From a virus, in IMG/VR virus record IMGVR_UViG_3300036768_001133, positions 1 through 64,000 of that record: a stretch of DNA of 64,000 bases. One strand, 5' to 3'. Each line of letters opens with the position of its first letter. Position 1 is the first letter of the stretch. The position numbers and the translations under genes are program-made. The notes under the pieces are model-generated. The model was not told the DNA's origin. It searched no databases and saw nothing but the letters and a program-made list of their open reading frames with translations. Below, one piece after another: positions 25,057-54,421 of this stretch.

Positions 25057-25475
25057 AAGTCGCTTTTTTAGAAGGTAAGGTTTATACACAACCTAAAAGA
25101 ATTAAAACCAAATTTGGAAAAGAAGTGCTAAGCTTTTCCATTGGTATTAACAATAACTATAAAGACAAGTCAGGGAACTATGTTCAAAGACCTATGACTT
25201 ATATCAATCTAATATGTCATAACCCTGATTTATTTGATGTTATTGAAAATATTAGACTAAAACAAGATAAAGTTTCTTTACTTGCGACGTTTGATATTGT
25301 GGAAGAAAAAGCAGATGGTAAAATTGTTAAAAACACTTACTATTCATTAGTAGCTATAAGTGTTAATAATGATAAATTGTATGGTGCTTATAAAACCTTT
25401 AAAGACCATTTTACATTAAAAGAAGATTTATATGTCCCACCAAAAGAAACAGACAAAGAAGACTTGCCATTTTGA
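25053..25475 (+). CDS. ssb: Single-stranded DNA-binding protein (SSB)
   Basis: 140 residues. An OB-fold domain (about 1-110) begins KVAFLEGKVYTQPKRIKTK and contains VLSFSIGINN and PMTYINLICHNP strands. The C-terminus is ETDKEDLPF, matching the acidic D/E-D-L-P-F tip by which bacterial SSBs recruit helicases, nucleases and polymerases. It should coat single strands during replication and ERF-mediated annealing. The same KEDLPF tip ends the giant helicase protein at 45773. The stop codon lies in the loop of a hairpin that includes the next start. Confidence 0.9.
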   Translation: MKVAFLEGKVYTQPKRIKTKFGKEVLSFSIGINNNYKDKSGNYVQRPMTYINLICHNPDLFDVIENIRLKQDKVSLLATFDIVEEKADGKIVKNTYYSLVAISVNNDKLYGAYKTFKDHFTLKEDLYVPPKETDKEDLPF

Positions 25476-29441: not shown

Positions 29442-29465
29442 CTTATAGATTGCTTCATTGAGTAA
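29418..29465. repeat. Perfect 24-bp tandem duplication at the convergent gene junction
   Basis: Units 29418-29441 and 29442-29465 are identical, beginning CTTATAGATTGC and ending CATTGAGTAA. The first copy holds the stop of the 29124 gene; the second forms the left arm of the terminator. Confidence 0.92.
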
Positions 29466-29495
29466 AGGGTAACCCCCTTTACTCAATTTTTTTTT
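29458..29495 (+). terminator. Terminator of the early block, overlapping the end of a minus-strand gene
   Basis: A 12-bp stem TTGAGTAAAGGG/CCCTTTACTCAA with a 5-nt loop, then nine T on the plus strand. The right arm contains the stop codon of the 29479 gene on the minus strand. Confidence 0.88.
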
Positions 29496-29787: not shown

Positions 29788-29799
29788 ATAAATATTTTA

Positions 29800-33478: not shown

Positions 33479-36400
33479 TTATTCTATCTCTAACCATTCA
33501 TCTATATCGTCCTTTAATCTTTGCTCATCTTCCTGTAATCCTTTTCTTATCTCTTTATTTAAGTTATGATACCCTTCTCCATTAAAGGCTTTGTAAAACT
33601 CCTCTACACTATTTAATACCCCTACACTATTCATTGTCTTTCTAAACCCTTTATCAAAATCTAATGTTAGCCAATACCAAGTTGCTTCTGCTAAATTGCC
33701 TACCCCCTTTACACTAACAAGACCATTCAAGTTAAATATACCCGTGGGCGATAATACTCCAAATATGTTCATATCAGAATAAATGTTTCGTAAGATATTA
33801 AATAAAAATCTTCTACGCTCTACATAATCTCTATCCCTTTCTTTTTCTTCATCATCAAGCATCATAAAAGCTAAAAACATAGACATTGTATAAATGATAT
33901 TACTTACTGCCCAACGTAACGAACTCATCTGCTCTTCTGAAAATTGCTCCTTTAATATTCTTGTATTTCTTGTTTTTAACACAATAATTAAACTTCTTAA
34001 CAAAGTACGTATAATACTTTCTTCATAAGGCATTAACTCTACTACTTCTCGCTTACCTTTGTCATTAACAACTTCTAACCTTTTATAGTTAAAGTTTCTA
34101 CCTTTGGGTTTAAGCACATTGTTAATAAAAGGCATATTGAATAGCTTAAACTTTAATAAAGCTCTACCAAAAGGAATACTGCTTAAATATACTTGGCTAC
34201 CTTCTGTTAACCCTGCACCTACTCTATTTAAGATTAGTTCTATTCTTCTTATTTGGTTAGCATCATAAGCATCATTCAAATCCCCTTTACCTTGCAAACC
34301 TTGTTTTATTCTATTTTCTAATATGTATTCTTTTAGTTCGTTTGCTCTTTTGTCTTTTCTTTTATCATATACTAACTCTTTCATACCATTTACTTCTTGT
34401 AAGCTATATGCTTCCCAAGTTCCTTCTTTTATCATCTGTGCAGTAAGCACTAATAACTTGATATACATATCGCTCATTTTATCTCCCATAAAGAACATAT
34501 CCATACCTGCTCTTGTGTTAAACATATCTCTTTGTGTTGTTCCTATGCGTTTAGATACTACCCAACGAAGCTGGTCTTCATTTACAAATTGAAATTTCTC
34601 TGCAAGAAAGAAAGCCTTTTCCATATTAAATGGTAATATCTTAACTGCCTTTGCAAGCTCCTTTGTTCCAAATACATCTTTCCTGCCTGCAAAGGTACTT
34701 GCAATTATCTTGTTAATACTTACAATAAAGGCTTTTGTGTTGCTGGATATATTTAAAGCTAAAGCCGCAAGCGTAGACACACTTTCAGCTATTAAACCTG
34801 TCTTTTCAATAGACCTCGTTAAAGCATCCTTAGCAAACTTAATACGCTCATTAAATAATACTTTTTGTGCAAAACTATCTATCAGCTCTATAATATTACT
34901 TTGCTCTCTACCTGTTTCTATTTGTCTTAACTTTGACATTATACGAGCTATGTTCCAAGCTGTCTTGGTATCTTGCAATATCCCATATCGTTCTGTATTG
35001 ATGTAGAAAAAGTTTAAAATGCTTCTCAAATCTGTACTTAACTTTTTGTTTAAGTTAATATCTAATTGTCCATTTGCTTTGCCTATAATGCCATCTCTTA
35101 CAGCTGTACTACCTAAACTATTTACCATTGAATATAACATTAAAGGCAAATCTGAATAGTCTTTGGCTTTTGAAGTCCGTTGATTGCCTGATAGTATATT
35201 TTCAAAGTTTTGCAATGAACTTTCTGCACTTTCAGAAAGTAAAGAAAAATCATCTACCTTAAACATAGGTGGTACTAAATATTTAGCAATATGCTCTATC
35301 TCTTTATACTTTAATACCCCTTCTTCACTACCAAACCTATGCTTAAAAGCCTGTAAATACAACTCGCTCAATAAATCACTATAACGCTCTATAAATTTTC
35401 TTTCAGCATTATTTAATTGCTTCCATTCAGGGTCAATAGGTTTGATAAGTTCAAAAGTATTAAACTTTTCTACTTTACCATTAACAACTACATCTTGATA
35501 CTTAAACAAATGTTCATAAAACTTGCCTTCATTATTTGTAAAAGCTATACCTTGTATTTTACTTTTATATTCAGCAAATACATTATCTACTCTTCTTACA
35601 TATTCATCAAATTTCTTTTTAAGTAATAGCTTTGCATTGTTATATTTTTCATACAAGAAATTAAAATAAGGGTTTTTGTTTTCTATGTCAGTAGTAATAT
35701 AAGAACTAATTTTAGCTAAATCATCTAAACTATTGTAAGCATCTTTGTTATTAGTAACCAAAGAAAAGTATGTTTTCACTAAATAGTAAAACTCTAAATA
35801 TAGATTGTCAGAATAAACATTTTTGTAGTTTATTTCTTCTTGTATGTTAGGATACCTTTTAAGAATTTGTTTTATCCTGCTTTCAATAGCATACAAAAGC
35901 GTTTGTGTATCTTTGCCTAATAAATAGTCTTCTATAAAAGTTGGGAAATCTTTGGTGTCAATAGAACTAACATTGGTATAATACCCTTCTAAAAACGATA
36001 GATAGTCAGGCATTAAACGACTGCTATCATCTATTTTATAGCTATCTTTCAATATACGTTCTAAATGCAAACTATTAAGTACAAACTTATTTTGAAAATT
36101 ACTTTGTAACAACAATCTTAATCTTTCGTTGTATTCATTAGGAAATACTTTTCTAATCATAAAAGAACTATCACTTTCGCTCAAACTCTTTACTAATCCT
36201 AAATCTCCTATTTGAGCATTAGCATTTTTAGCAAGTAGTATTTTAGCAAGTATAATAGTTTGATAAGATAAAGTATCTTCCAAAGTATAGTTTTCTCCTT
36301 CCAATCCATAAGCAAATTTCTCTATCATTTTAGAAAACTTATTTATGAAACCTGTACTTTGGTGGTATCTATCTTTCCAATTATATCCCTTGTTTGCTAT

Positions 36401-39400
36401 GTTAATAAGTCTATAACTTGTTTTTCCATTAGGCAAAGCACGTTCTAATACAATAATGTTTGTATGGTCGTCTAATAAATCATATTGATTAGCCAGTTGT
36501 GCTATTTCATTACTGCTTGATTTATTTACAAGATATATCTTATCTTCTTTTTTATAGTCAGGAAATAACTTTAAGTATTTTAATTGTTGTTTAGCTAATA
36601 CATAATCGCTAAAATTTACATCACTATCACTAACGTCTTGTCTTTTTTCTTCATAAGATTTTATGATTTTATTAAGTTCAGATGCTTTTTGTATAGGATT
36701 GCCTATCCCTTTGTAAAAGTTAATAACTTCATTTAATTCTTGTTTTTGCAGTTCATAGAAAAACTTTTTAGCATATTCTTCATTATTCATTTTAATAGTT
36801 TGCTTAAAATCTTCCCAAGACATATCTACCTTACCTTTTGATGTAGTAATAGATACTATCTTATCATTTGTATCAAAAGGTCTTCCTAATAGGTTAATAT
36901 ATGCTTGCCTATTATTAAAGCTATCTATGTAATATTCTCTATGCTCTTGGGCGTATTCAGATAGGTAACTCATTGTTACTTCATTAGTAGAATATCCCAA
37001 AGCATTAAAAATATTAGTAAAATTTGATGAACCTAATTTATAGTATATTGTATTAGATAAATTAGACCTTATATCATCAGTAATTTGAACATTGCCATAT
37101 AATACATTACTTGCATAATCATTTAATATATGGTATATTTTTTTCTTTTCTATATCTGTTATTCCGAATAGCTTATCATTTATGTATCTGTTTAACTTGT
37201 CTATTATATTTCTTATTAAAGACATAATAGCACCAAAGAAATTTCCTGTTTTATATTGTATTTCTGCATACCTCTTTGTATTGTATAACCCAATTAACTC
37301 TGTAATAGCCTCATCAACAAAATCACTTTCCTTATCATATACTTCATTATACCTACGTAATACCTCTTTGTAAAGTTCTGTATTACGTATTAAGTTAGAC
37401 AACTCTTCATATACATCAGGAAAATTCTTCTTTAATAGAGCTACTTGATAATGACCTATTTCGTGAAAGCCTGTATCTAAATCTATATTAGCTATGTTAA
37501 AATAAACTACATTGTTTTCTATTTTTCCTTTCCAAGTAGCACTTGCATTGTTTTCTATCTTTACTTCTACGCCTGCTTTCTTTAATGTATCTGTCGCAAA
37601 TTCTAAAAAGCTATGTTTTAAGTTGCTTAATAATAACTCATCATTTGACTCTCTTGTAAATACGGGAAAAAACTCTCTGCCATCTAATTGATATAACTCT
37701 TCTGTTTCTTGGTTTTGAAGTTTTGTTGTTTCTTCTATTACTTCTGTCGAAGTAACTACTTCACTGCTTGCTATATCTCTTACATTTGCAAAAGCTAAAT
37801 AAGACATAGCATAAGTATTAAAATGTGATAGCAGTGATATAGGAATACGGCTTCTAACAACAATGTTTCCAATGCTTGTCTCAACAGGATAAAGCCTTGA
37901 TTTTAGTTTGCCAAAAGAACTTGATACCTCTTCATAAATAACCATTCTCTCTTTATCTGCTTGCCTTGCCTCTTTATCTCTGCCTTTTATTAAATCATAT
38001 ACCGACTTTGAAGTATAAACCATATGATTTCTTACTCTTTGACCTGTATGTGTCAAAGATATGTCTTTGTCTGATTTTACAAGAATATCCTCAAATACGG
38101 CTTTACCATCTATTATTCCTCCAAAAAACTTTACTTTGTCCTTTTCACTTGCTACCTCTTTGGCATAATCTTGATATTTCTTTTGCACTAATGAAGGCAA
38201 AAAACCACGTATGCTCCTATAGCTATTTGCTTTATGCGTTAATACACTATACAAATCAAACATAGAAAGAAGACCCGAAGGCATACGTGAAAATATATCT
38301 TGCGAAAAGATTATCTCATCTTCGGATAAAGATGTGATTGCTTTTCTGCGTTCTATCATCATACTACCAAAAGTGTCTCTTTCTATACGAAACACTGACC
38401 ATAAAGGTTTATAGTCCTCCTGCTTTTTGAAAACAGCTTCTAAAAAGGACGCAAGCATTTGCGTATAAGCATACCTGCCTTCAAAACTTAATATATTGCC
38501 TTTATTCTTTGCATAATTGCCTATCTCATCTAACAATTCCGATAAAGTATATTTTACTTTGTAATATACCCCATTCACATTTGTCCCATCAGGAACAATA
38601 ATCTCTACTATATCTCTATTACCCTCCTTTCTGTTATTTCTATCTACTTGGGTTGAATACTTATTTACATATACCTCTTGATTAGATAAATTATTACTAT
38701 CTAAAAATGCTTTCAAATCACTTACATATATACTATCCAAATTGTCTATAACATATCCTAATGATAAACTATCATAATATATGTTCTTAAAAGAATTAAA
38801 TAAAGTAAAAAAAGATTTTGCAGATTTTATTTCTTTGTTGTATATTCTTTCTAAAAACCGAAAACTATCTTCTCTGTAATAAGGATATATTTCTGCTAAA
38901 TCCTTAATTAGCAATGAAGCGTTTTCTAAAACTTGTACTTTACCAAATTCAGATTTTAAAAAATAGCTTGATGAATTTTCTATAAAATTAACTTCATTAT
39001 TACTTTTACTTACTTTATCATAACTTTCACTAACAATTTGTTGTATAGTATCTCCATAAAAAGTATTTTTTACACTAATACTATTTTGAAAAGCTAATAA
39101 TCCTCCAACAATCTTATCTAAATAATCTTCAAAGTTATTTTTGTATCTATTGATATTTGTTATCTTTTGTAATTTCAAAGATTGTTGCGCTATATCTAAT
39201 AAAGTTTTAATAAACTCCTTTTGATTTATTAATTCTTTCTTTTTATTTTCATCAGTTTCTAATTCTTCTTTACTCTTAAAAAATCTATCTACTACTCTTT
39301 CCATCTTTATAGGCATAATCCCTTTCATGGAAGCTATGTTAATAGCATCAGATAGCTCCCTTAATATCGTATTATTAGGTCTTTTAGTTTCTTCATCATA

Positions 39401-42400
39401 TCCCCCACCAATAAAATCTAATATCTCATTTATATCTGCTCCATATAGCAATAAAGCATTGATAAGATTAGTAGTAAAAGCTGTAACATTTTGCTTTCCA
39501 GTGGCATTGTACTTGCTATCATCAAGTACGGTCTGTGTTAGCTTGTCTATGATAGGCTGTATATCTAAAACTTTCTCGTTAAAATGTATATAAAACTTAT
39601 TTCCCCTCTCTCCCTTAAAGCTTTTTAATCCAAAACTATTAGCAACATCTTTGTTTATTTCAGGTAAGACAAAGTCAATATTGTTATCCTTATTTATCAT
39701 TTTCAGATAACTATACACTTCATTAAACTTTACAAAATATCCTACTAACTTTTGACTACCCTGATTTTGTATTTGGCTGTTTATCTTGTTTAAGCCTGTC
39801 ATCATTCTGAAAGGAAAAGATAAAATAGCATCTTTCTGTTTTAACTCTGACAAGCTCTTGTCTATGTATTCTGTATATTTCTCCGCTTTTTCTAAAATCA
39901 AAGTATTATCTATGGGTGTGATAGATTTGACAAAGTTTTCTGACAAAGATAAATTTGCTTCCAAAGAGTCATAATACTTATTAGAATATACCAAATTTTC
40001 ATTATTAGGTATTTTTGCAATAATCGTAGCACTATCTCCGTCGTTATCTGAACCTTCTATGTATTGCGACTCATAAGGTAAAAATAAAATGTTATTCATA
40101 TTCTCTACAAAACCTACTATCTTACTATTTCTAAATGAAGCCCTTGAAGTTGTAGGAATACGTATGCTTACTACTTTTATATCTTTTCTGTCTGTACTAA
40201 TTAAATCTTTGTCGCTTTTCCAAAAAGTATCTTTTAGCTTTTTATCATATACAGCAGGACTTGCATAATCTCCAAGTTTGTAATGCACCTTAAAATCATT
40301 TGACATTATTATCTCCGCAGGCGCTATTACAAACTCATTGTCAAATGCTTTGCTATCTGTTTTTAATAATTTTATAGCTTCTATTAACTTGTTGCCTAAT
40401 ACAAGCCTATTAGTGTTTTTATGTCTAATTGTTTGCGTCTGTAATGGTCTTGCTATGAACCTATCTGCATAATCTTCTCTTATCTGATAGTAATTATTAC
40501 TATCTTCTTTTAAAACCATATCATATTTATTGTTAAGCCCATTAAATATCTTTATAGATGTGTAGTTTTTGTCTAAATCCCCTTCATCTATTTCATAAAC
40601 TATAAAACTCTTTTTAGTTATTTTCCCTGTTTTTTTGTTTTTAAATTCTTTTTCTATTCTTTTAGCAGTGTAACGTACTCTGTCTTCACTTGCAAACTTT
40701 TCAGCATAACTTTGCAAACGAAAATATTTATTTCGTTTTACTATACCCATCAGTAATAAATCCCGCAAGGTATAAGTATTTCCTGTTTCTATGTCTTCAA
40801 AGATATACATACCTATACCCGTAGCATCACCAATTACTTTTCTATCCCCTGCTACTTTGGGTATAGATGAACGTTTCATAGGCTTTAAGATAGCACTCCC
40901 TACTTCACGCTCATAAGTAGGTTCATATAAACTTACTTCTCCATTATCCTGTATCTTTGAAGCTATTAACTCATTTCCCCCCAAACTATATTGGTCACTT
41001 ATAGATTGTAATAAATTATTTACTACTTTACTCTTACTTTCATCATCAACATTAGTAGATAAACTATAGTTGTTTCTATATTTTTCTAATGCTCTATTAG
41101 ATAGCTCAATGATGCTTTTGTAAGTCTCTTTGCTCATCACTAAATAAGAAATCTGACTTGGCAAAGAAACTACATTCACTTCATAAGGATTTATTTCGTG
41201 TGTTACTTTGGTTACCTCTCCAAATTGTGTAGCACTAACATAATCACTTATATCTAAAACTTCTGAATTTTCTATCGCATCTGCATTATACTTTACTCCC
41301 GTATAAGTCTTTGAACCTGTTTCATCAGTAAGTATATGCAATAAATGCAAATTTATATCAAATACTAAATCTATATCTAACTTAAACTTTTCGTGTGCTG
41401 TATTAAAATATAAATCTCCTACCTGTTCCCATTGCTTTTTTATCTGTTTGTATAACTCATTAAAATTTTGCTTATTAGACAAAATGTAATTCTTGCCATT
41501 AAAAGCAATCCTTTTAGATGTACCTCTATTCTGAAGCAAATCCAGTGTTACTTTCTTTAAATCGCTTACAAGTTTTTCTGTTTCCTCATCTAAACTAATA
41601 TATTCCTCTCCCTGCTTTTTAGATAGTAAAGCCGTAGATATCCTTATAGCTTTCATACTATCTAAATACTCTTTTATTAGATCTTTATAATCCTGTAAAG
41701 AATATTCATAATCTAATAGCTTCCTGTAAGCATCAACTTTTGTATCTGCATTTAATTGATTTTTTAACCTTTGTAGTTTTTTCTTATTTACATTATTCTT
41801 TTTGGTCTCTTCTATTATCTCATTTTCTATTTCTTTTCTTATATCATTAAGTTCAAAAATAACTTTATCGTAATAATTTTTTCTTTTCTCGTTTAGCCTT
41901 TCAATAATACTATCAGGCAAAGCATTTTCGTTTAGCTTTCTTATTTTGCCCAAAGGGTCAAAGTCTTGCAATTGTGTATGTAAATTCAAAGTAGAGGTCT
42001 TATCAAATATACCTGTTAATTGATGAGTTATCCCTGCTATGGTGTTCTTGGTAATACCTTCCATATTGGTATTAGTAGCATCACCTAATAGCAAAGCAAC
42101 TAATGGACTAACAAACATAAAACCATCAGCAAGCTCTTTATTAGTAAGGGCTTCTGCACTCTTTTTAAACTCATCTCCTAATAAATTATAGTAAGTTTGT
42201 AGTAATGATGTTTCAGGATAAACATCACCATAAGTTTTGGCTTTTAAGACTACACGATTAAGGGTAGATACTACCGAAGGGTCTGCAACATTATGAGCTG
42301 TCTGTCTTAAAATAATACGTTTAGATAGCTCCGTAGGCTCTCTAAATATCTTTACTTCATCATCAGCTAAATGACCACCTACTAAAAATAACTCATATAT

Positions 42401-45400
42401 GCCTGATAAAATATCTAATTCAAAAATCTTTCTTGCAAACTTATTTTTTTCTTTATCATCTAATAAGGCTTCATCTATATTATTATTTAACCTTGATAAT
42501 ATTTCTTTTACTTTTTGTACTTGCTTGTAAGATTCTGTTTTTTCTGAAAAGTTGGCTTGTAAAATACTTACATACTGACTATATCTATTTACATAATCTT
42601 TCAAAGATTTAATGTATGATATAAGGATATTTTCTTTCTCTTTATAGAGCTTATCTAAAAGTGTATCTTCTATATCTGTTTCAGAATTACTTGTATTATT
42701 CCTATATGCAAAACCATATCTATTAGGCAGTAAAATTTTGTTATCTTTACCTATTGTGTAATGAACATTCTTTAATAGACCATACTTTTTGTATAGCTCA
42801 TTAACTATGTTTTCTTTTTTCTTATTAGAAACATCTATTTCATCTTCTATACTATTATACTTTTCTTTTATCTTATTCTGTAAGTCTTTTGCATTTACAT
42901 TGTCTATATCTACACTTATTCCTAACTTTTCTGCAAGGTGAATAGTATAAGCAGTAAATATATCTTGTAAAAGACTTTCTATGCTTTTATCTTTTAAAAA
43001 CTTGACATCAGCTATAAATTGTAATTTCTTATTACTTGGTGTATGTAATACTGCTTTGTCATCTAACAATAGATTGTAATGCAATAAAATCTTTTCTAAT
43101 GCGTTTATATCGTGAAAGGTTACAGTTTCTTCGCCTAATCCTAATTCTTCTTCTCCTATATGTCTTACTGCACTTGTATCAAGTTTTGTAACTAATTTTC
43201 TGCTTTTTAAGTAATTAGAAACACTATCCCCTAATTTATCTTTTATATCTTCTTTTAAAGCTATATGCAAATTGTATTTTCCAAAATAAGTAGAGGCTAT
43301 CTTATCGTTTAAATATGCTTCTTCCTTATTTTGAAACATCTCTATAAAGAAAGGATTTGGGAAAAATACATTGTTAAATTGAACACTGGCTTCATATTTG
43401 TGTATCTTAAAATTGTTTCTTTCTTCTATGGTTTCTTTACTATCAATCCTAAAAACAACAATATCTCTTAAATTATACAAATAGTTAAGGTCGTTTCTTT
43501 TTAAAAATGATTTTAACGAAAGTTCTTCAAACTTATCTATATCGCTTTGTTTTATTTTATTTTCTAATGCGTCTCTAATATCTTGTTCTTTTTCTACTTT
43601 TACATTGTTTTCCTTGATAAATCTATTCAGCTCAAAAACAGATGAAAAAATATCTTTGTCTTCCCTAATAATCCCTAATCTTTTTGTATTGTAATCGTGA
43701 ACTAAAAATATATCTGTACTATTCGTAATAAGCCTATACAAAGCAAAACGAGTAAATAACTCTTTAGCTAAATCATTTAGATTTTTATCCTTACTATCAG
43801 AAAATAACTCTTTATCTATCTCTACTTCATATTCTAAATATTTGTATTTAGCCTTAAAAATATAGCTATTGTTAGATAACTTATTTACTACTCCCTGCTG
43901 TAATTCAAACTCTACTTCATTAGATTTTAAAAACAAAAGATAAGGATTATCATCAGACATTGTGCTAATGTAAGTCTCCAAAGGCGATAGTAACTTTTGA
44001 TTTATCTCGTTTTTTACTACTCCCCAATTTGTATGATTTACTGCTTTATTAAATCTGTTTTGCCAATTGTCCTTACCAAAATCATATATACCATTTGGAA
44101 ATGCAGTTTGTAAATTTGATGATAAAAACTCATCTAAATCGTTTAATATAGAATTATATGCTTTATCTAATACATAATCAAGGTTTATAGCTAATAACTC
44201 ATTAGAGGTTTTAAGCACATAATTGCTATTTATCCATACGTTATTATAAGGCTGTACGGAAATAACTTCATTGATAATATTAAATAAAGCAGATTGCGAA
44301 TATTCAGGGACTTGTTGTTTCTTAAAGTGTAATAGATAAGGGTTAAATGTCTGAATATGCTCGTTATCTTTTGAAATAATTACCCTGTAACGAGTATCTA
44401 TATCTTCGTTACCAAAGAATAATATGCTATCAATATTACTATTATCTTCTAAAAATTCTGATAAATAACGTACTGCAAAAGATAACAAAGCCTTGTTATA
44501 CCTGCCAAACTTTTTTTCTAATGCACCCTTTATTAACTCTTCTCTCCAATTGTTTTTGTTTTCTATCCTATTAAAAGCAAAACGTAAAGCCTCTAATATG
44601 TATTCAGGTGAAAAAAAGTTAGGTAATAAGCTATTTTTTTTATATGCTTCCTCTATGATTACTCGTGTTACCTTTTTACCTTCTATCTCTACTTTTGTTT
44701 CTATAATATTTACATTTGGAATAAACTTTAATAGCTCTCTTACGTTTTTTGAAGTAAGCCTGATATTAGGCTTTTCAAAAGCTATGTCCATTACTTCGTT
44801 TATTCCCCGCTCATTAAAGTCTGAAAGCAAATCCTCTTCTTCCTCCTGTACATCTACAATGTTAGTTTCAAAATTGCTTAATTCAGTAATAATGTCTTCT
44901 TGGGTTTCTTCTGTTACTTCTTCTTCCTCTACTTCTTCTTCCTCTACATTTTCTTCTGTTTCTGCTTCTGCTTTTAACTCTTCTTTTTGTTTTTCTATCT
45001 TTTGTCGTTTTAATTCTGCAAGAATCTTGTCAGGAATTTTGTAAAACCTGCTTTTTGCTCTTGGGCTAATAGGTATGTTTTCTAATAAAATATCTGTAAT
45101 AGCTTTTAAAGGCGATACTTTGTATTTAGAATTCTCCTTGCCTGCATCTTTAATATATTCTTCGTGTGCTTCTTTGAGCTTATACATATAGTCAGCTACT
45201 ATAAGCATACGCTCATAGCCAACTAATTTTTCTCCTTTGTTATATTTATCTTTTACTTCTCTTAATATGGTATTTTCGTCTTTGCCTTTATAGCTATTTG
45301 ATAGTTTTGCAATAACAAAATTTTTTAAATTGTTTAATACATTATAATAGTCATTAAAATTGCTAATATTATTAAAAACTACACCATAAGCACTTTTAGC

Positions 45401-45760
45401 TGTAAATAAACGCTCAAACAAATCTACTTTCAGATACTCAAAAAACTTAAAAAACTCTTTCTTCCTATCTTCAAAACTACCATAATCGCTAAAAGCACTA
45501 TTGATGAAATTGTTAATACTATCTACTTTTTCTTTGCTAAAAGATTTTAATTTCTTGCCATATTCTAACTTCATTAAATTAACATACCAATCATTGATAG
45601 TTTCTTTGCTATTACTATTGCTGATAGATTGCTTATATCTGTTAATAACTTCTTCTGAAATAGGTAAATTACCTATCATTAGTATATTATCACTATCTTT
45701 ACGATAACCTAATAAAATATCATCTAATAGCTTTGCACGATTGATGGATAGACAACTCAT
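33479..45760 (-). CDS. Giant virion RNA polymerase with metallopeptidase motif
   Basis: 4,093 residues in one frame. The polymerase active-site loop is YIEGSDNDGDSATI, with Asp1905, Asp1907 and Asp1909 as the metal-binding triad of double-psi beta-barrel polymerases. The preceding IRIPTTSRASF and FLPYESQ segments match the crAss-like virion polymerase, which is ejected with the DNA and transcribes early genes. At His2766 a HEIGH motif (GFHEIGHYQ) marks a zincin-type metallopeptidase. Residues 240-310 are Glu-rich; two hydrophobic stretches near the C-terminus might cross the host membrane. In many relatives this content is split among several proteins. It ends at TAA near a promoter. Confidence 0.85.
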   Translation of the reverse strand: MSCLSINRAKLLDDILLGYRKDSDNILMIGNLPISEEVINRYKQSISNSNSKETINDWYVNLMKLEYGKKLKSFSKEKVDSINNFINSAFSDYGSFEDRKKEFFKFFEYLKVDLFERLFTAKSAYGVVFNNISNFNDYYNVLNNLKNFVIAKLSNSYKGKDENTILREVKDKYNKGEKLVGYERMLIVADYMYKLKEAHEEYIKDAGKENSKYKVSPLKAITDILLENIPISPRAKSRFYKIPDKILAELKRQKIEKQKEELKAEAETEENVEEEEVEEEEVTEETQEDIITELSNFETNIVDVQEEEEDLLSDFNERGINEVMDIAFEKPNIRLTSKNVRELLKFIPNVNIIETKVEIEGKKVTRVIIEEAYKKNSLLPNFFSPEYILEALRFAFNRIENKNNWREELIKGALEKKFGRYNKALLSFAVRYLSEFLEDNSNIDSILFFGNEDIDTRYRVIISKDNEHIQTFNPYLLHFKKQQVPEYSQSALFNIINEVISVQPYNNVWINSNYVLKTSNELLAINLDYVLDKAYNSILNDLDEFLSSNLQTAFPNGIYDFGKDNWQNRFNKAVNHTNWGVVKNEINQKLLSPLETYISTMSDDNPYLLFLKSNEVEFELQQGVVNKLSNNSYIFKAKYKYLEYEVEIDKELFSDSKDKNLNDLAKELFTRFALYRLITNSTDIFLVHDYNTKRLGIIREDKDIFSSVFELNRFIKENNVKVEKEQDIRDALENKIKQSDIDKFEELSLKSFLKRNDLNYLYNLRDIVVFRIDSKETIEERNNFKIHKYEASVQFNNVFFPNPFFIEMFQNKEEAYLNDKIASTYFGKYNLHIALKEDIKDKLGDSVSNYLKSRKLVTKLDTSAVRHIGEEELGLGEETVTFHDINALEKILLHYNLLLDDKAVLHTPSNKKLQFIADVKFLKDKSIESLLQDIFTAYTIHLAEKLGISVDIDNVNAKDLQNKIKEKYNSIEDEIDVSNKKKENIVNELYKKYGLLKNVHYTIGKDNKILLPNRYGFAYRNNTSNSETDIEDTLLDKLYKEKENILISYIKSLKDYVNRYSQYVSILQANFSEKTESYKQVQKVKEILSRLNNNIDEALLDDKEKNKFARKIFELDILSGIYELFLVGGHLADDEVKIFREPTELSKRIILRQTAHNVADPSVVSTLNRVVLKAKTYGDVYPETSLLQTYYNLLGDEFKKSAEALTNKELADGFMFVSPLVALLLGDATNTNMEGITKNTIAGITHQLTGIFDKTSTLNLHTQLQDFDPLGKIRKLNENALPDSIIERLNEKRKNYYDKVIFELNDIRKEIENEIIEETKKNNVNKKKLQRLKNQLNADTKVDAYRKLLDYEYSLQDYKDLIKEYLDSMKAIRISTALLSKKQGEEYISLDEETEKLVSDLKKVTLDLLQNRGTSKRIAFNGKNYILSNKQNFNELYKQIKKQWEQVGDLYFNTAHEKFKLDIDLVFDINLHLLHILTDETGSKTYTGVKYNADAIENSEVLDISDYVSATQFGEVTKVTHEINPYEVNVVSLPSQISYLVMSKETYKSIIELSNRALEKYRNNYSLSTNVDDESKSKVVNNLLQSISDQYSLGGNELIASKIQDNGEVSLYEPTYEREVGSAILKPMKRSSIPKVAGDRKVIGDATGIGMYIFEDIETGNTYTLRDLLLMGIVKRNKYFRLQSYAEKFASEDRVRYTAKRIEKEFKNKKTGKITKKSFIVYEIDEGDLDKNYTSIKIFNGLNNKYDMVLKEDSNNYYQIREDYADRFIARPLQTQTIRHKNTNRLVLGNKLIEAIKLLKTDSKAFDNEFVIAPAEIIMSNDFKVHYKLGDYASPAVYDKKLKDTFWKSDKDLISTDRKDIKVVSIRIPTTSRASFRNSKIVGFVENMNNILFLPYESQYIEGSDNDGDSATIIAKIPNNENLVYSNKYYDSLEANLSLSENFVKSITPIDNTLILEKAEKYTEYIDKSLSELKQKDAILSFPFRMMTGLNKINSQIQNQGSQKLVGYFVKFNEVYSYLKMINKDNNIDFVLPEINKDVANSFGLKSFKGERGNKFYIHFNEKVLDIQPIIDKLTQTVLDDSKYNATGKQNVTAFTTNLINALLLYGADINEILDFIGGGYDEETKRPNNTILRELSDAINIASMKGIMPIKMERVVDRFFKSKEELETDENKKKELINQKEFIKTLLDIAQQSLKLQKITNINRYKNNFEDYLDKIVGGLLAFQNSISVKNTFYGDTIQQIVSESYDKVSKSNNEVNFIENSSSYFLKSEFGKVQVLENASLLIKDLAEIYPYYREDSFRFLERIYNKEIKSAKSFFTLFNSFKNIYYDSLSLGYVIDNLDSIYVSDLKAFLDSNNLSNQEVYVNKYSTQVDRNNRKEGNRDIVEIIVPDGTNVNGVYYKVKYTLSELLDEIGNYAKNKGNILSFEGRYAYTQMLASFLEAVFKKQEDYKPLWSVFRIERDTFGSMMIERRKAITSLSEDEIIFSQDIFSRMPSGLLSMFDLYSVLTHKANSYRSIRGFLPSLVQKKYQDYAKEVASEKDKVKFFGGIIDGKAVFEDILVKSDKDISLTHTGQRVRNHMVYTSKSVYDLIKGRDKEARQADKERMVIYEEVSSSFGKLKSRLYPVETSIGNIVVRSRIPISLLSHFNTYAMSYLAFANVRDIASSEVVTSTEVIEETTKLQNQETEELYQLDGREFFPVFTRESNDELLLSNLKHSFLEFATDTLKKAGVEVKIENNASATWKGKIENNVVYFNIANIDLDTGFHEIGHYQVALLKKNFPDVYEELSNLIRNTELYKEVLRRYNEVYDKESDFVDEAITELIGLYNTKRYAEIQYKTGNFFGAIMSLIRNIIDKLNRYINDKLFGITDIEKKKIYHILNDYASNVLYGNVQITDDIRSNLSNTIYYKLGSSNFTNIFNALGYSTNEVTMSYLSEYAQEHREYYIDSFNNRQAYINLLGRPFDTNDKIVSITTSKGKVDMSWEDFKQTIKMNNEEYAKKFFYELQKQELNEVINFYKGIGNPIQKASELNKIIKSYEEKRQDVSDSDVNFSDYVLAKQQLKYLKLFPDYKKEDKIYLVNKSSSNEIAQLANQYDLLDDHTNIIVLERALPNGKTSYRLINIANKGYNWKDRYHQSTGFINKFSKMIEKFAYGLEGENYTLEDTLSYQTIILAKILLAKNANAQIGDLGLVKSLSESDSSFMIRKVFPNEYNERLRLLLQSNFQNKFVLNSLHLERILKDSYKIDDSSRLMPDYLSFLEGYYTNVSSIDTKDFPTFIEDYLLGKDTQTLLYAIESRIKQILKRYPNIQEEINYKNVYSDNLYLEFYYLVKTYFSLVTNNKDAYNSLDDLAKISSYITTDIENKNPYFNFLYEKYNNAKLLLKKKFDEYVRRVDNVFAEYKSKIQGIAFTNNEGKFYEHLFKYQDVVVNGKVEKFNTFELIKPIDPEWKQLNNAERKFIERYSDLLSELYLQAFKHRFGSEEGVLKYKEIEHIAKYLVPPMFKVDDFSLLSESAESSLQNFENILSGNQRTSKAKDYSDLPLMLYSMVNSLGSTAVRDGIIGKANGQLDINLNKKLSTDLRSILNFFYINTERYGILQDTKTAWNIARIMSKLRQIETGREQSNIIELIDSFAQKVLFNERIKFAKDALTRSIEKTGLIAESVSTLAALALNISSNTKAFIVSINKIIASTFAGRKDVFGTKELAKAVKILPFNMEKAFFLAEKFQFVNEDQLRWVVSKRIGTTQRDMFNTRAGMDMFFMGDKMSDMYIKLLVLTAQMIKEGTWEAYSLQEVNGMKELVYDKRKDKRANELKEYILENRIKQGLQGKGDLNDAYDANQIRRIELILNRVGAGLTEGSQVYLSSIPFGRALLKFKLFNMPFINNVLKPKGRNFNYKRLEVVNDKGKREVVELMPYEESIIRTLLRSLIIVLKTRNTRILKEQFSEEQMSSLRWAVSNIIYTMSMFLAFMMLDDEEKERDRDYVERRRFLFNILRNIYSDMNIFGVLSPTGIFNLNGLVSVKGVGNLAEATWYWLTLDFDKGFRKTMNSVGVLNSVEEFYKAFNGEGYHNLNKEIRKGLQEDEQRLKDDIDEWLEIE

Positions 45761-45772: not shown

Positions 45773-48700
45773 TTAAAAAGGTAAATCTTCTTTTTCTATT
45801 GTTCCTGTTTCTGTTTCTGTTTCTGTTTCTTTTCCTGTTTCTATTGCTGTTTCTGTCCTCGTTCCTGTTTTTGTTGCTGTTACATTTTCTTTTTCTCCTG
45901 CTTTTGATGTTTTACATACATTGTCCAAGTTACTTTCTTTAATAGAAATGTTAATCTTTATATCAGTTGGCTTGTCTGTTTCAAAAGTATCAAATATAGA
46001 TACCCCCTCTATAATTTGGTTTTCAGTATTATTCATTGCTTTTACATTGTCAAAACTAAATCCTGCTATTACTTCATATATTAACTCATTACTTTTTACA
46101 TCTTCTATTTTTCTCTTATTGTTTTCTGAAATATACAAGTTAATATATTTCAAATGATTAGCATAAATATTAAATATAGTATTCTCTGAAACACTTTTTA
46201 AGACACTCAATAAATCATTTCCTAATATATGATTTTCTTTATTTATTATTGAAATAGCTCCATATACATTTTCATAACTAACAGTATCATCTTGCTTCAT
46301 TTTCTTTAGTATATTAACATACCTTCTTGCAAGACTTCTTGCCGTTTTTGACATAATTTTTTTTGCTCTTTTATCTACTTCTTCTTCTTCTTCTTCTGTT
46401 TCTTTCAGTAAATCTACTAAAAATTTATTAAAACCTGAATCTTTATTCTTTTCTAAAATATCTTTAATGAAAATATTTTCAAGCGTATTTTCCATACTAA
46501 GCCTATTTTTCAAACCATCCGAAGTTATTATTTTAATAACTTCATTTCCCGACAAACCTATTCTTCCTGCACCAAAAAACTTAGCTAATAATTGTCTTTC
46601 ATATTCGTTTAATTGTTTGTCAATAATTGGTATTTGTTTTATATACTTAAAAGCAGAAATAACCTTACCTTTGTTTTCATCACTTAATTGGTCTATGTTT
46701 TTGGCTTTCATTTGCACTAATACTGCTTTTCGGTTTTTTACTGCTTCTTTTAAGATATTACTTGCCTTTTCATATTTTTTATTTTTTATCTCTCGATTGT
46801 AATTTAATTTTGTTTTAATATCTATAAATTGAGGTACATATAAATATCCATTTACAGAAAGATAAGGATAACTGGCTGAACTTTGTACATAATCCTTTAA
46901 TGTTGTAATATTTCCTGTACTTGCTACATACCTGCCAAAAAATCTATCATCAGGCGAAACTTCATATTGTATATCTATAATCTTTCCATTGTCTATAAAC
47001 TTGTCAAATATACTATTATTTTCATTCCTATTTTTACTTAACCTTACTAAACCTATTAGCTTGCCTTCATATTTAATATTTATAGCATAAAACTCATTTC
47101 TTCCCGTACCAAATACTTTAAAAGTATTTCCTTCTTTAATAGGCTCTAATGTAATAGATACATTATTTCCTTCTTCTAAACTACTTATGAACGAATTGTA
47201 AGCATCATTATCAAGTTTAAAGGTTAATCCTGTACTTGCTTCATTTACATATTCAAAAACTCCTTCATAAGTAGAACCATAGAAATATCTATCGAAAGCA
47301 TCAGATATAGCTGTTAATAGATTGTTTTCATCATCATCAGCTTTCTTTTCTTCTCCTTCTTCTAATTGTTTTAAGTCTTCATATACTCTATAATGTATAT
47401 CAAAATCCCCTAATGCTATATCTCCTACATATATTTGCCTTAACTTACCATCTATCGTTACATAGTTAATATTGTCTTTATCTCTTGTAATAGTACCTGC
47501 TTTAACTTTTGAAAATATAAAGTTATATATCTCTTTTATTAGATTTTTTTCAATATCTCTTATTTCATTCTCATTTAACTCTTCTTCTGTTTTTCCTCCT
47601 TGTGTTGTAGATTTAGCAGTTTTTGCTTTTTTATCTACAGCAGTTTTTGCTTTTTTATTTCTTGCTTTTTTATTTCTTGCTTTTTTATCTACAGCAGTAA
47701 CAACTTTTATTTCTCCATTTCTTTCTTTTTTCTCTATACTTATATTACTTGATTGCAATTTACCAAATTCAAGCGATAACTCCTCTTGCATTTTGTTTTT
47801 TTCTAAACTTGGAAATATTACTATACCTTCCTTATCAACTTCTTTGACATTTTTCTTTAAGTTATCTATAATACTATCTACTGATTTTACATAGTCTTCT
47901 TGTCCCGTAAAATCACTATTAACAACAATAATACTATGTTTGCCTCTTGATAAAGCAACATACAAAGCAGATTTTATTTGTTCAGCTGTAAAATCAACAT
48001 CTACATCTTGTATCTTTTTTGTATAAACTTTATTTACTCCTGATTGCAAATTATTGATAACGTTAATAGCTTGCATAAGGGCTTTTATATCTATAATTAC
48101 GCTTTGTCTTTCTTGCCCTTGATTAGGATATACTGCATTTAGTATTTCATCAAAACTATAATAAGTAAAGGCTTGTTGGTCATTACCACTTGTTTTATGA
48201 TGATATACTATCTGTCCATATTGCTCTTTACTTGCATTAAATTCTTGATTGTTTAAAAATACAATTCCTTGATGAACAATATCGCTATTTACGTTAAGAT
48301 GACTTTTTAAGTTTAGTCCATCAAAGAAATTGTTAATATTTATATTGTCTAATTTTAAGACAGCTAATACACGTTCTAAAAAGTTAGCTATCACTTCATT
48401 TTCAAAACGCAAAGGTACATTGACAGAAAAATTGCCTTCTATTAGATCACTTTTTATATTAAATATACTAGTGCTATTTGCAATTTCTTGCTCTCTATAA
48501 AATTGATGTCTGTCTCCTACTAATACAAAATTAGGTTTATTTAACCAATTTTCAGAGGCTAATGTATATTCATCAACAATATAGATTGTATTTTCTTTGT
48601 TTGTATCTAATCCTTGATAATTTGGCTCATTGTATTGCAAGCTGTTAGCACCTTTATAGGGCGATATAGTTTCTGCACCTGCTAATACTTTGTTATTATT

Positions 48701-51700
48701 ACTATGATTGATATACACTACATTAAAATTAGCATTCTGTAATAACTTGTTAAACATTTCTAACATAGTAGTTTTCCCTACTCCTGCAACAGCGTGTATA
48801 GTATTAAGATATGTTCCTGGGATTTGTTTTGCTTTATTATTTTCTTCTAAAAGTTTTTCATACAAAATTTTTTCTGCTTCTTCTATTTCTACTACAGAAT
48901 ATATGCTATTACCTGAACTATCTTTGGTTTCTGTAATCTTTAATCTATTTTGCAATAGGATATGAGCAAATTTTTCATACAATACCATTATTTGTTCTAA
49001 TGTAGGTACTATATTAGTATCTTTGATACTACCCATAAGGTAGTTGTAAAAAGTATCGATAGGTAATACAAGAAACGGAGTTAGTACAATAGATTGGTTT
49101 TGGTTAATAGTGTTTATACTATCTTCTGTACTATACTTTTGTATTACATTGTTTTGTATTTCTAATAATGTATCAGTAGGACTATTAAGGTTAGATATAT
49201 TATATCCATCAGGTAATATATCTAATGACATCATTTTTTCTGCTATATTTTTTACTGCCATTACATAGTTATTACGTATCTTTAACAATCTCACATCTGT
49301 TGTAGATTGTATTAAGTATTTTACTACTTTTAGTTCTTTTATTAGTTCATATTCATCTTCACTATTGCTAATAACTGCACGTACATCTTTTACTTCTTGG
49401 GGATATTTATTAAAGAAATCTGCTCTATCTTCTAATATATTGATGTACTTCTTTTCTATGGTCGTAGCCAAATCTTTTTGTGAAAGAATGCTTTGAGATA
49501 TATCTATAAATTCAGAAAACTGAATAATAGTATCTATCTCTTTTATAATTTTACTTGCTTCTTCTACATCTAACTTTTGTCCATTTTGTAAGTTTTTGTA
49601 TATTTCTGTATAGAATTGCCTAAAAGGTTTATTTTTATACTTTTCTAAATATTCGTTTCCTAATAGATTTTTTGTCAATAGTTTAAGAATATAATCTTCT
49701 TTACCAAAATAATTAGGTTGTATATCAATGTTTTTTAGCTCATCTGATAAAGATTGAACTTTCTGTATTTCGTTTCTAATTTTTTCTTTTTGCTCATCAT
49801 AATTTTGCAATAACTTATACCAAGTAGTTTTTGAAATATCAACATTACTTATTTGACCGTCTATTATCTCTTCACCTTGTAATATTTGATAAAAAACAGA
49901 AATAGTATTGTTATCACCAAGATTTCTATAAGAAATGTCAAAACCACCTCCAGGAAAATCTATAATAATTAAATCATCTTGTTCTATTGTTACATCTCCA
50001 ATCTTTAATTCAGGATTGCTTAAAAAGCTAATTGCAACATCAATATTCTGTTTAATAACATCATTATCAATATTATCTTTGGCAGTTTCAAATAAAAGTT
50101 TTAAGTTTTCTGTAAGGTTTTCTTTTACATTCCCTTCAAATATTCTATTCTTTTCTTTGTTTACATTTTCTAATACTCTATTATTTTCTAATACTATATT
50201 ATTTAGATTTTGAATTGATGTATCTAATACAGACTTTAATCTAACATCTATTAGACCATCTTTTCTTTTATCTAATATATCCTTGATAGAAATTGCAATA
50301 TCCTGTACTTGTGTTTTATTTACTATATCATTATATTCTTGCTCTATGCTATTATACTCATCTGAAATAAACCTACCATATTCGGATAAAAAATTACTTA
50401 TATTAGACTTGTTTTCTTTTGCATATTGTATTGTATCTACAAGAATATTAACTATATTTGCTATGTTAATATCACTATCTATATCCAAAGAAAATCTTTC
50501 TGATAATAGCTTAAAAATATAACTGCTATCTTTATGTCTTGCTAAATCCATTAACATATCTATAATAGCAGATTTAGCCTTCATATCCTTCATTTCTTCT
50601 TCCAACACAAACTTATTTAAATTCCTACGCATTTGTAATTTAGCTAATAGCTTACCACCATTAGATAAACTATTATACTTAATATCCCTACCAGTATAAT
50701 GGAACATATGATTGTTTATCTCATTACCTTCTTCGCCCAAATCCCTTACATCATATCTATATGTAGATTTTTTACTTTTTACAATAAAATAATCTCCCTC
50801 TAATGTACCATTTACAAATAATACACTCTCCCTTGTCTTGTCTGTTTTTGGATAACTAAACCCATAATCCTCCAATATATCTGCTATCCTATTAGCAAAT
50901 TTATCTCTTTCTACCTCTCTTTTGCCAAAAGATATGCTATTTATATCACTTTCTACTTCCCTATCTATATTTTCAAATTTATCATTTAATACATTCTTGT
51001 ATTCTCCTATCAAATTGTTAGCTTCTTTTTCTAATAATAATTTTTTCTCTTCTTCTCTTTTTTCTTTCTCTTCTGCTGTTTCTGCTACAGCTGTTGTTTC
51101 TGCTTCTTTTGTTTCTGCTTCTTTTGTTTCTGCTACTTTTGTTTCTGCTTCTTTCTTTTTTCTTTCTAACTCCCTTAATAACTTATTCTTTACTAATCCT
51201 TCTACATTACTATCTACATTAGATAAATCTAACTTTAATACTATATCCTTTAAATTCTGCAATCCATTTTCAAACTCTTCTCTACTAATACGCCCTTCTA
51301 CAAAATCATTTTTTATGCTTTCTGCTTCCTTTGCTAAAAACTCTTTTTTCTCCAACAACTCTTCTGTTTTATGTTTCTTTATAGCTTCTATAAAACTACT
51401 TTTACCACTATCACTTATATTTAAATCATTTATCTTTCCATTGTTTTTCGCTCTCTCTATATTGCTATAAAGTACCCTATTATACATATCATCATTTAAA
51501 TCTCCTTTACTAAATATTACTTCATTAGCAAATACGTGTTTGCTCGCATCATACTTTACAAATCCTGATTTTTCATAATCCCTGTTATCACTATCTATAT
51601 CTATATCAATAGCTTTCCCTGCATCTTTTCTATCTATCTCTTTTACCCATAAATTCCCTTCCTTATCTTTTACTATCGGTCTTGCTAATGTCTTACCACT

Positions 51701-54421
51701 CCCTATGCTATCCAAAGCATAATTCTCTGCAAGTGAAAACTCATCTAAATAACCCTTTACTAATCCTTGTCTAATCTTTCTAATATCTTCTCCTAATTGC
51801 TCATTGCCACTAAAATTAGCAATTAGCTTTTCTACATCTTTATTTTTTCCTCCATAAAACAAACCATCTTTTTTATTTTTCTGCCTTTCTATATGCTCAT
51901 TTACTAACTTCTGCTCAATAGCATCTATTTCTGCTAATGCACTCTTATACACAAAATCATTTGCAGTCATCTTTTTATCCCCCTCTTTTATTACATTTCC
52001 ATACACATCTGTTGTCGTTGAAGCTAATTTCCCCTCTTTCCAAGAACCCTGCAAAGATTGTAATAACTCATCTTTCTTGCCCAAAGCTATATAGCTTGCC
52101 GCCATCTCTGAAAAATCATCAAAAGTAGTTTTACTTAAAGCCCTTTGTGTGTTGTTAAAAAATCTATTCCGTACAGTATTAGGTATTCCTAATGCTCCTG
52201 TACTTAATGTTGAAAGTACAAATGTTGAAGCAAGCTCATCAAAATTTATATCATCATCTAACTCTTTCTTCCCCTCATCTTTAATAAACATATTGTAAAA
52301 CTTGTTACTTAACTTAAAACCCAATTCTTCTGAACTTTCCTGTATCCCCTCTCCAATAGCTTGTGGTGCTTTTTGTAAAGTATTTACAAGTCCTTTTGTG
52401 TATTTACTGATAATATTAGTTTTTAATAATTCTTTTTCTGCTTCTGTCTTTACATTCTGCATACCACTTAAATACTCATCTGCCATTGAACGCATAATAT
52501 TATCATATTTCTTTTTTAATACTTTATTACCTGAAAGTAATTTTTCACTTATATCTCCTCCTATTAACCGCATTGTACCCCTTGTTACCAAGGAATACAT
52601 TGTCCCTAATGTATGAGCATCTTCATCTGAATGTCCATTTGTCATTGCTTCATTATATCCTTGCATATACGACATCTGTCCAAATAATAATCCTGATGAT
52701 ACAGCATAAGGATTTGTACCATATACACCTTTTACTACTGAACCTACACCTTTTGCAAAAGAATTATTTGTTATTCCTCTAATAATAGAATTATTTAATA
52801 CGGGATTAGTTAATAGTTTTAATCCTTTAATACCTAAGTTTATTGCTTTTCCTGCTAACCCTACTACGGGAATAGAAACTAATTGCTGACCTAATATTTC
52901 TGTTACACCACCAAGTAGTTTAGAAAGTGAAAAATCCCCTGAACTATCTTTATAGATAGCGCTAAATCCTGTACTTAAATCACGACTAAAATCTGTACCT
53001 GCCTTTGATAAAAACTCATCATAGTAAGGTCTATCTCTCTTAGGATTGTAAAAACCCAAAGATAACATACTTGCCGTAGTAGTAAATGGATTTTCTCTGA
53101 ATTGTTTAATAACATCAAGAGATGAAGCTATACCTGCTACTGCTCTATCTCCTATGTATTCCCAAAATCCCTTTTCTAAATCAGGTCTTGCACCTTGTAC
53201 TTTCAAAGTCAATGCTCCATCTTCTTTCCTACGCTTTTCTACCTGACCAATAGTAGTAACCATAGGCATACCTTCACCATATCTATTTGTATAAGGATTG
53301 TAAGGATTTAACCCTAACTTAGCTAAAAAAGCCTGACCTTTCTTATACAATGTATCCCCCTCTTCCTTTTCTATTAAACTCTTAATGTTTTCATCTTTGC
53401 TTGCATAAGCCATTAGTACATCTATATTCCTTGCATTTGTAGTTATCTTTTCTTCTTCTTCTTCTTCTTCTTCTGTATATGATGAAAAAATCCAAGTAGG
53501 TACTTTTTCTATATATGATGAAAAAATCCCAGTAGGTACTTTGTTTGTCAATTCAAAGAATAATTCTACCGATTTATCTAATGCTTTATTTTCACTTACT
53601 CCAAATTTTTTATACAAATCTTCATCTTTCCCTAAACTATCTAATGAATAATTGCCATCTAAATTGTTAATATAAGAATAACCTCTATCTAATTGCTTTA
53701 AGGCTTCTTGTATATCTTTCGTAAGTGTAGCATCAGGAACGTTTCTTAACTCAACAGGTAAAGGCGAGTATTCTGCATCTTTTGGTAACATAGAGCCTAA
53801 ATAATCTGCAACATTTTCTCCCTGCAAAGATATTTTCCCTAATTCATTATCTAAATTGATAGTCAATTTTAAGTCTTTAGCTGTTCTTGGGTTATAGTCA
53901 TATACAATAAAACCTTGATTATTATTAAACAAATTAAAAATGTTTCCTACATTTTTTAAGGCTGATAGCTCTTTATCTTCTTCTTCTTCTCCTGTTTTAG
54001 TTTCTATTTTAGCTCCTTTTTGAAGTTTAGGAATATCATTTCCCTGGTTTTCCTCTTTCAGCTCATCATCTTGTCTTAATAATCTTTCTTTTTCTAACTC
54101 TTCTAATAACAATTCTTCCAAAGTAATAGGTCTTACATCATATTCTCCTATATGCTTTAAGAAATTTTTGTATTTACTTAATTTGTTTTGTACTTCCTTT
54201 TCAGACAATCCCCTGTCTAATAATGTATTTTTTACACTATCTTCATCATATTCTACTCTATTCCAATTTAACAAAGGATAAGATTTTGTGCTAATGACAA
54301 AGTCAATAGCATCTTGTTTGTCTAAATTGTCGTAATCAATCTTTTCTAAAAACTTATTAAAATCAAAATGTAAGTCTTTATCACGTATAAAAAGCACTTG
54401 GGGGTCTATATCTCTAAACAT
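45773..54421 (-). CDS. Giant cargo protein with SF1 helicase domain and SSB-like tip
   Basis: 2,882 residues. N-terminal and central regions include hydrophobic, Gly-rich helices near residues 480-640, as in ejected phage proteins. The helicase core has Walker A AGVGKTT (Lys1883), Walker B IYIVDEY (Asp1950, Glu1951), a motif III-like VLVGDRHQF and motif VI VALSRGKH near 2155. These are superfamily 1 features of the RecD/Pif1 kind. Repeats of AETKE (near 1110) and KKARN (near 2265) are low-complexity linkers. The C-terminus is a Thr/Glu linker ending EKEDLPF, like SSB tails. It is upstream of the virion polymerase in the same operon (12-nt gap) and is probably packaged with it. Confidence 0.8.
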   Translation of the reverse strand: MFRDIDPQVLFIRDKDLHFDFNKFLEKIDYDNLDKQDAIDFVISTKSYPLLNWNRVEYDEDSVKNTLLDRGLSEKEVQNKLSKYKNFLKHIGEYDVRPITLEELLLEELEKERLLRQDDELKEENQGNDIPKLQKGAKIETKTGEEEEDKELSALKNVGNIFNLFNNNQGFIVYDYNPRTAKDLKLTINLDNELGKISLQGENVADYLGSMLPKDAEYSPLPVELRNVPDATLTKDIQEALKQLDRGYSYINNLDGNYSLDSLGKDEDLYKKFGVSENKALDKSVELFFELTNKVPTGIFSSYIEKVPTWIFSSYTEEEEEEEEKITTNARNIDVLMAYASKDENIKSLIEKEEGDTLYKKGQAFLAKLGLNPYNPYTNRYGEGMPMVTTIGQVEKRRKEDGALTLKVQGARPDLEKGFWEYIGDRAVAGIASSLDVIKQFRENPFTTTASMLSLGFYNPKRDRPYYDEFLSKAGTDFSRDLSTGFSAIYKDSSGDFSLSKLLGGVTEILGQQLVSIPVVGLAGKAINLGIKGLKLLTNPVLNNSIIRGITNNSFAKGVGSVVKGVYGTNPYAVSSGLLFGQMSYMQGYNEAMTNGHSDEDAHTLGTMYSLVTRGTMRLIGGDISEKLLSGNKVLKKKYDNIMRSMADEYLSGMQNVKTEAEKELLKTNIISKYTKGLVNTLQKAPQAIGEGIQESSEELGFKLSNKFYNMFIKDEGKKELDDDINFDELASTFVLSTLSTGALGIPNTVRNRFFNNTQRALSKTTFDDFSEMAASYIALGKKDELLQSLQGSWKEGKLASTTTDVYGNVIKEGDKKMTANDFVYKSALAEIDAIEQKLVNEHIERQKNKKDGLFYGGKNKDVEKLIANFSGNEQLGEDIRKIRQGLVKGYLDEFSLAENYALDSIGSGKTLARPIVKDKEGNLWVKEIDRKDAGKAIDIDIDSDNRDYEKSGFVKYDASKHVFANEVIFSKGDLNDDMYNRVLYSNIERAKNNGKINDLNISDSGKSSFIEAIKKHKTEELLEKKEFLAKEAESIKNDFVEGRISREEFENGLQNLKDIVLKLDLSNVDSNVEGLVKNKLLRELERKKKEAETKVAETKEAETKEAETTAVAETAEEKEKREEEKKLLLEKEANNLIGEYKNVLNDKFENIDREVESDINSISFGKREVERDKFANRIADILEDYGFSYPKTDKTRESVLFVNGTLEGDYFIVKSKKSTYRYDVRDLGEEGNEINNHMFHYTGRDIKYNSLSNGGKLLAKLQMRRNLNKFVLEEEMKDMKAKSAIIDMLMDLARHKDSSYIFKLLSERFSLDIDSDINIANIVNILVDTIQYAKENKSNISNFLSEYGRFISDEYNSIEQEYNDIVNKTQVQDIAISIKDILDKRKDGLIDVRLKSVLDTSIQNLNNIVLENNRVLENVNKEKNRIFEGNVKENLTENLKLLFETAKDNIDNDVIKQNIDVAISFLSNPELKIGDVTIEQDDLIIIDFPGGGFDISYRNLGDNNTISVFYQILQGEEIIDGQISNVDISKTTWYKLLQNYDEQKEKIRNEIQKVQSLSDELKNIDIQPNYFGKEDYILKLLTKNLLGNEYLEKYKNKPFRQFYTEIYKNLQNGQKLDVEEASKIIKEIDTIIQFSEFIDISQSILSQKDLATTIEKKYINILEDRADFFNKYPQEVKDVRAVISNSEDEYELIKELKVVKYLIQSTTDVRLLKIRNNYVMAVKNIAEKMMSLDILPDGYNISNLNSPTDTLLEIQNNVIQKYSTEDSINTINQNQSIVLTPFLVLPIDTFYNYLMGSIKDTNIVPTLEQIMVLYEKFAHILLQNRLKITETKDSSGNSIYSVVEIEEAEKILYEKLLEENNKAKQIPGTYLNTIHAVAGVGKTTMLEMFNKLLQNANFNVVYINHSNNNKVLAGAETISPYKGANSLQYNEPNYQGLDTNKENTIYIVDEYTLASENWLNKPNFVLVGDRHQFYREQEIANSTSIFNIKSDLIEGNFSVNVPLRFENEVIANFLERVLAVLKLDNININNFFDGLNLKSHLNVNSDIVHQGIVFLNNQEFNASKEQYGQIVYHHKTSGNDQQAFTYYSFDEILNAVYPNQGQERQSVIIDIKALMQAINVINNLQSGVNKVYTKKIQDVDVDFTAEQIKSALYVALSRGKHSIIVVNSDFTGQEDYVKSVDSIIDNLKKNVKEVDKEGIVIFPSLEKNKMQEELSLEFGKLQSSNISIEKKERNGEIKVVTAVDKKARNKKARNKKAKTAVDKKAKTAKSTTQGGKTEEELNENEIRDIEKNLIKEIYNFIFSKVKAGTITRDKDNINYVTIDGKLRQIYVGDIALGDFDIHYRVYEDLKQLEEGEEKKADDDENNLLTAISDAFDRYFYGSTYEGVFEYVNEASTGLTFKLDNDAYNSFISSLEEGNNVSITLEPIKEGNTFKVFGTGRNEFYAINIKYEGKLIGLVRLSKNRNENNSIFDKFIDNGKIIDIQYEVSPDDRFFGRYVASTGNITTLKDYVQSSASYPYLSVNGYLYVPQFIDIKTKLNYNREIKNKKYEKASNILKEAVKNRKAVLVQMKAKNIDQLSDENKGKVISAFKYIKQIPIIDKQLNEYERQLLAKFFGAGRIGLSGNEVIKIITSDGLKNRLSMENTLENIFIKDILEKNKDSGFNKFLVDLLKETEEEEEEVDKRAKKIMSKTARSLARRYVNILKKMKQDDTVSYENVYGAISIINKENHILGNDLLSVLKSVSENTIFNIYANHLKYINLYISENNKRKIEDVKSNELIYEVIAGFSFDNVKAMNNTENQIIEGVSIFDTFETDKPTDIKINISIKESNLDNVCKTSKAGEKENVTATKTGTRTETAIETGKETETETETGTIEKEDLPF

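Follow-up and report, generated by a model that had tools for sequence, protein, structure and literature searches.

The 64,000-nucleotide stretch of viral DNA that we analysed (IMG/VR record IMGVR_UViG_3300036768_001133, positions 1 to 64,000; hereafter the window) encodes a giant protein of 2,882 residues, which combines an SF1 helicase core with a C-terminal hexapeptide, KEDLPF, identical to the one that ends the phage's own SSB (Table 1). This match is real, and it is unlikely to be due to chance. Our preferred reading, to which we assign a rough probability of 0.4, is that the tip is a genuine SSB-Ct-like docking peptide, carried on a flexible tether, through which the giant would engage SSB partners, most likely those of the host, once it has been ejected as virion cargo. 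Genome-maintenance enzymes of bacteria have their main docking hub in the SSB tip; if our reading is correct, a virion protein that bears such a tip would permit these enzymes to be captured or diverted directly, at the first moments of infection.

Table 1. Positions of the principal features in the window
Feature	Coordinates	Strand	Basis
Phage SSB, 140 aa, with the same KEDLPF end as the giant	25053..25475	+	Translation, Pfam
4,093-aa protein with RNA-polymerase motif SDNDGDS; next gene downstream of the giant	33479..45760	-	Translation, motif
Giant protein, SF1 helicase core and SSB-type C-terminal tip	45773..54421	-	Translation, Pfam
Terminal KEDLPF codons and stop codon of the giant	45773..45793	-	Translation
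T/E/K/G-rich linker preceding the giant's tip	45794..45925	-	Array and composition
SF1 helicase region of the giant, residues 1850-2260 (GVGKTT, VDEYT, LVGDRHQ, YVALSRGK)	47642..48874	-	Motifs and Pfam

The C-terminal tip and its linker

Translation of the minus strand gives the giant a C-terminus of ...TETETGTIEKEDLPF*, the last ten residues being GTIEKEDLPF. The original prediction had described an EKEDLPF ending behind a Thr/Glu-rich linker and had equated the tip with the end of the phage SSB. The ending is confirmed by translation and the linker is T/E/K/G-rich, while the identity of the two tips proves to be exact over six residues when both translations are compared: the SSB terminates in ...ETDKEDLPF*. 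As in an SSB-Ct, a hydrophobic residue is followed by Pro-Phe at the extreme C-terminus (DLPF), with acidic residues (E-D) at positions −5 and −4; the Lys at −6 renders the giant's tip only weakly acidic. The product of the SSB gene matches the Pfam SSB family (PF00436, 2.7e-6), whereas profile searches with the giant gave no match to an SSB (OB-fold) domain.

The two tips are encoded differently. The last five codons, stop included, read GAT-TTA-CCT-TTT-TAA in the giant and GAC-TTG-CCA-TTT-TGA in the SSB, so that synonymous third-position differences are found at all of the Asp, Leu and Pro codons; because of these differences, we reject recent copying of the SSB end as the origin of the giant's tip. 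A 113-aa ORF (23978-24319), which lies two genes upstream of the SSB gene, ends in KKEKTKLPF, in which Leu-Pro-Phe is preceded by basic and not acidic residues.

The segment immediately before the giant's tip (approximately residues 2833-2876) is of low complexity and is encoded by a hexanucleotide array (45800-45896) that stops short of the tip codons. The composition of this linker suggests that it is likely to be disordered and to serve as a flexible tether. An AlphaFold model of residues 1850-2882, computed without an alignment, was discarded for its pLDDT of 32. A second array (51094-51154), built of 15/30-base units, lies inside the giant's gene and encodes a linker of the AETKVAETK type. 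Its length is not the same in the window as in a 97%-identical relative (see below), which indicates that linkers of this kind vary within the gene.

Frequency of the terminal motif

Crass-like phage DNA totalling 480 kb was searched for the motif [DE][DE][LIV]PF in frames of at least 100 residues (629 C-termini; 159,077 residues). The motif stands at 6 of the 629 C-termini and nowhere inside the frames. Its six bearers are the window SSB, the giant, a 362-aa Flavobacterium-phage protein and three replication-block proteins of ~200 aa. From the amino-acid composition of the window, the expected rate is ~5e-6 per protein end, which for a genome with some 100 genes corresponds to a composition-based chance of ~5e-4. 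As a sequence feature, then, the SSB-type tip of the original prediction is well supported: it is specific to C-termini, the phage's own SSB has it too, and it follows a likely flexible tether.

A second pattern, D-hydrophobic-P-F-stop, was sought in 16 named phage records, the window record and the close relative of the latter, and the reading frame of each match was checked. In-frame ends of this type belong to a ~200-aa family (eight records), the 362-aa Flavobacterium-phage protein, a 120-aa cr118 protein and the two window proteins; no other giant in these records has one, and an extra match in phiCrAss001 DNA sits in a frame of four codons. The members of the ~200-aa DLPF-ended family are likely, though not proven, to be SSBs, a grading that we adopt because their SSB matches in PHROGs are weak and those in Pfam and PDB nil. 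The 362-aa protein (Flavobacterium phage Fpv20, 6001-7089; phrog_15446, function unassigned) ends in TEEPQVEDLPF after a low-complexity stretch, adjoins a ThiF gene and is found in 29 Flavobacterium phage records; judged by this ending, it is a second non-obvious bearer of an SSB-type tip. The 120-aa protein, from uncultured phage cr118_1 (1504-1863), has no family match and ends in QKIEDDLPF; cr118_1 additionally encodes a ~200-aa DLPF-ended protein.

The helicase core and the search for relatives

The original assignment of the giant as a helicase is supported by matches of residues ~1872-1978 to PF01443 (8.6e-7) and PF13604 (1.6e-6), both of which are above the curated cut-offs. SF1 motifs I, II, III and VI are all present (GVGKTT, DEYT, GDRHQ and VALSRGK, respectively), and the core looks intact. 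PADLOC matched neither the giant nor its 4,093-aa neighbour nor the SSB; a match to NCBIfam antiphage_MADS4 (0.0026) lies far under the cut-off, and we dismissed it as chance.

We found one close relative, which is 97% identical and whose sequence ends at giant residue 1,408. Searches by tblastn of 50,697 phage records with the whole giant, its helicase part or its C-terminal third yielded nothing relevant. Scans of viral contigs, for which we used the whole giant, the helicase, TerL, the portal, the major capsid protein, the RNA-polymerase motif region and helicase-motif DNA patterns, recovered no relative besides the one that stops at residue 1,408. None emerged from scans of genome contigs either: the loci picked up by two helicase-motif patterns were translated, and 0 matched the helicase region.

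Gene neighbourhood and probable packaging

The phage record comprises 72,795 bases and may be incomplete. Matches to crAss-like phages run at 26-28% for TerL and 23-26% for the major capsid protein; the portal, like that of phiCrAss001, is P22-like. Twelve bases separate the stop codon of the giant from the start of the gene for the 4,093-aa protein. The RNA-polymerase signature of the latter has counterparts in Azobacteroides phage PJPA_041 (DDNDGD) and in phiCrAss001 gp50, cr4 gp26 and cr273 gp35 (SDFDxD). A zincin-type metallopeptidase motif, FHEIGHY, is likewise present in the 4,093-aa protein.

The giant thus lies beside a DxDxD RNA-polymerase giant, the position of Crassvirales cargo, of which (or of the associated transcription block) we take phiCrAss001 gp45-gp50 and the phi14:2 RNA polymerase to be examples. 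Mass spectrometry has placed phiCrAss001 gp45, gp46, gp47, gp49 and gp50 in the virion (PMC10172136). Because the gene block of the window corresponds in position to this block of virion proteins, the giant is probably packaged. The likeness lies in very large proteins, encoded in one block that adjoins the RNA-polymerase gene, and it is gene order that points to a virion location for the window giant. In contrast, blastp and phmmer detect no sequence similarity between the window giant and those of four crAss-like phages. The Walker A pattern [GA]xxxxGK[ST] is missing from the giants of phiCrAss001, cr273, cr4 and the Azobacteroides phage, with the exception of the 534-aa phiCrAss001 gp46, which has one match, probably by chance. 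The SSB-type tip is absent from the giants of these same four phages (for phiCrAss001 gp47, the C-terminus alone was used in the comparison). One crAss-like giant of 5,794 aa, cr273_1 gp35 (12514-29898), ends in DADMDADIDF, which is acidic and has a final Phe but no Pro.

Comparison with bacterial SSBs and phage N4

The tip of Escherichia coli SSB is DDDIPF. That of a Bacteroidota SSB, from F. psychrophilum, ends in DLPF (PMC3991886). The giant resembles bacterial SSB-Ct sequences in that acidic residues, a hydrophobic residue, Pro and Phe stand at the extreme end of a likely flexible linker; it differs in that it is a helicase protein without an SSB domain match, and in that its tip, with Lys at −6, is less acidic. 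A possible further parallel is with phage N4, the packaged virion RNA polymerase of which can depend on SSB and works with it early in infection (PMC4496689); the likeness would lie in packaged transcription machinery that acts together with SSB. The difference is that in N4 host SSB itself serves as the cofactor; a pattern search of the N4 record gave no D-hydrophobic-PF terminus. Our searches of the open-access literature turned up no virion protein described as carrying an SSB-Ct mimic.

Possible role of the tip

We hypothesize that the giant, a cargo-type crAss-like phage protein with an SF1 helicase, encoded beside the virion RNA polymerase, would be ejected into the host, where its free Pro-Phe end could dock in the pocket in which partner proteins take SSB tips. 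Host factors (e.g., PriA, RecQ, RecO, RecG, primase) would in this manner be brought to the helicase on the incoming phage DNA. Alternatively, the tip may keep host factors away from SSB-coated phage DNA, and it is possible that it competes with SSB for partners. The acidic tip of SSB by itself binds RecO, PriA, PriC and chi, whatever the linker (PMC7145534). A tip moved onto another protein could do the same, and the idea that the giant's tip recruits repair or replication factors of the host would therefore fit published work. It would also fit the gene content, since the proteins scanned (part of the proteome) include no recognised DNA polymerase or primase; among those recognised in the replication region are RepL, a DnaB-type helicase, ERF, SSB and RusA. 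Host partners appear somewhat likelier than phage-encoded ones. A more specific proposal, that a virion-delivered helicase with a copy of the SSB docking peptide captures host SSB-partner enzymes on the incoming genome before the phage's SSB has been made, is one that we put forward tentatively and regard as doubtful. In favour of our preferred reading is that the motif's carriers are mostly SSBs or SSB-like proteins; against it count the absence of the tip from the other crAss-like giants examined, its weak acidity with Lys at −6, and the lack of a sequence match to known cargo proteins.

Could the KEDLPF end be a functionless coincidence at the close of a simple-sequence stretch? The case is a single one, the array lies directly upstream of the tip, the other array in the same gene varies among close relatives, and the scan that gave rise to the original prediction took in many windows and motifs. 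Set against these points are the low expectation from composition, both per protein and per genome, the confinement of the motif to C-termini in the crAss-like sample, the location of the tip codons outside the array, and the agreement of the tip, Lys included, with that of the phage's own SSB. We consider coincidence unlikely, while still according it some weight because the chance estimate applies to a single motif whereas many windows and motifs were scanned.

Two other explanations grant the tip a function. It may be a real SSB-Ct-like peptide that acts in phage replication or assembly through a phage-encoded partner, such as the virion RNA polymerase, the DnaB-type helicase or the ERF annealing protein. 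The phage does have its own SSB, ERF, RusA and DnaB-type helicase, and its SSB and the giant bear the same tip; however, no SSB-partner family was recognised beyond general replication and recombination enzymes, and we judge this explanation to be rather improbable. The tip could instead be autoregulatory: an acidic, Phe-ended tail might fold onto the surface by which the helicase, or the neighbouring polymerase, binds DNA, and be freed once DNA is bound. There is a precedent in E. coli SSB, the tip of which contacts the protein's own DNA-binding domain, in competition with partners (PMC7145534). Yet a generic acidic tail would not need to be exactly identical to the SSB tip, Pro-Phe included, and autoregulation seems to us very unlikely.

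Other genes in the window

The RepL plasmid replication protein (16239-16721; PF05732, 8.1e-14) is here encoded in a crAss-like phage. Four paralogous genes (14947-15525, 18960-19538, 19612-20226 and 20232-21011) consist of repeats of a unit like YCPEYFDGNKYNWEKDSWAIVK.
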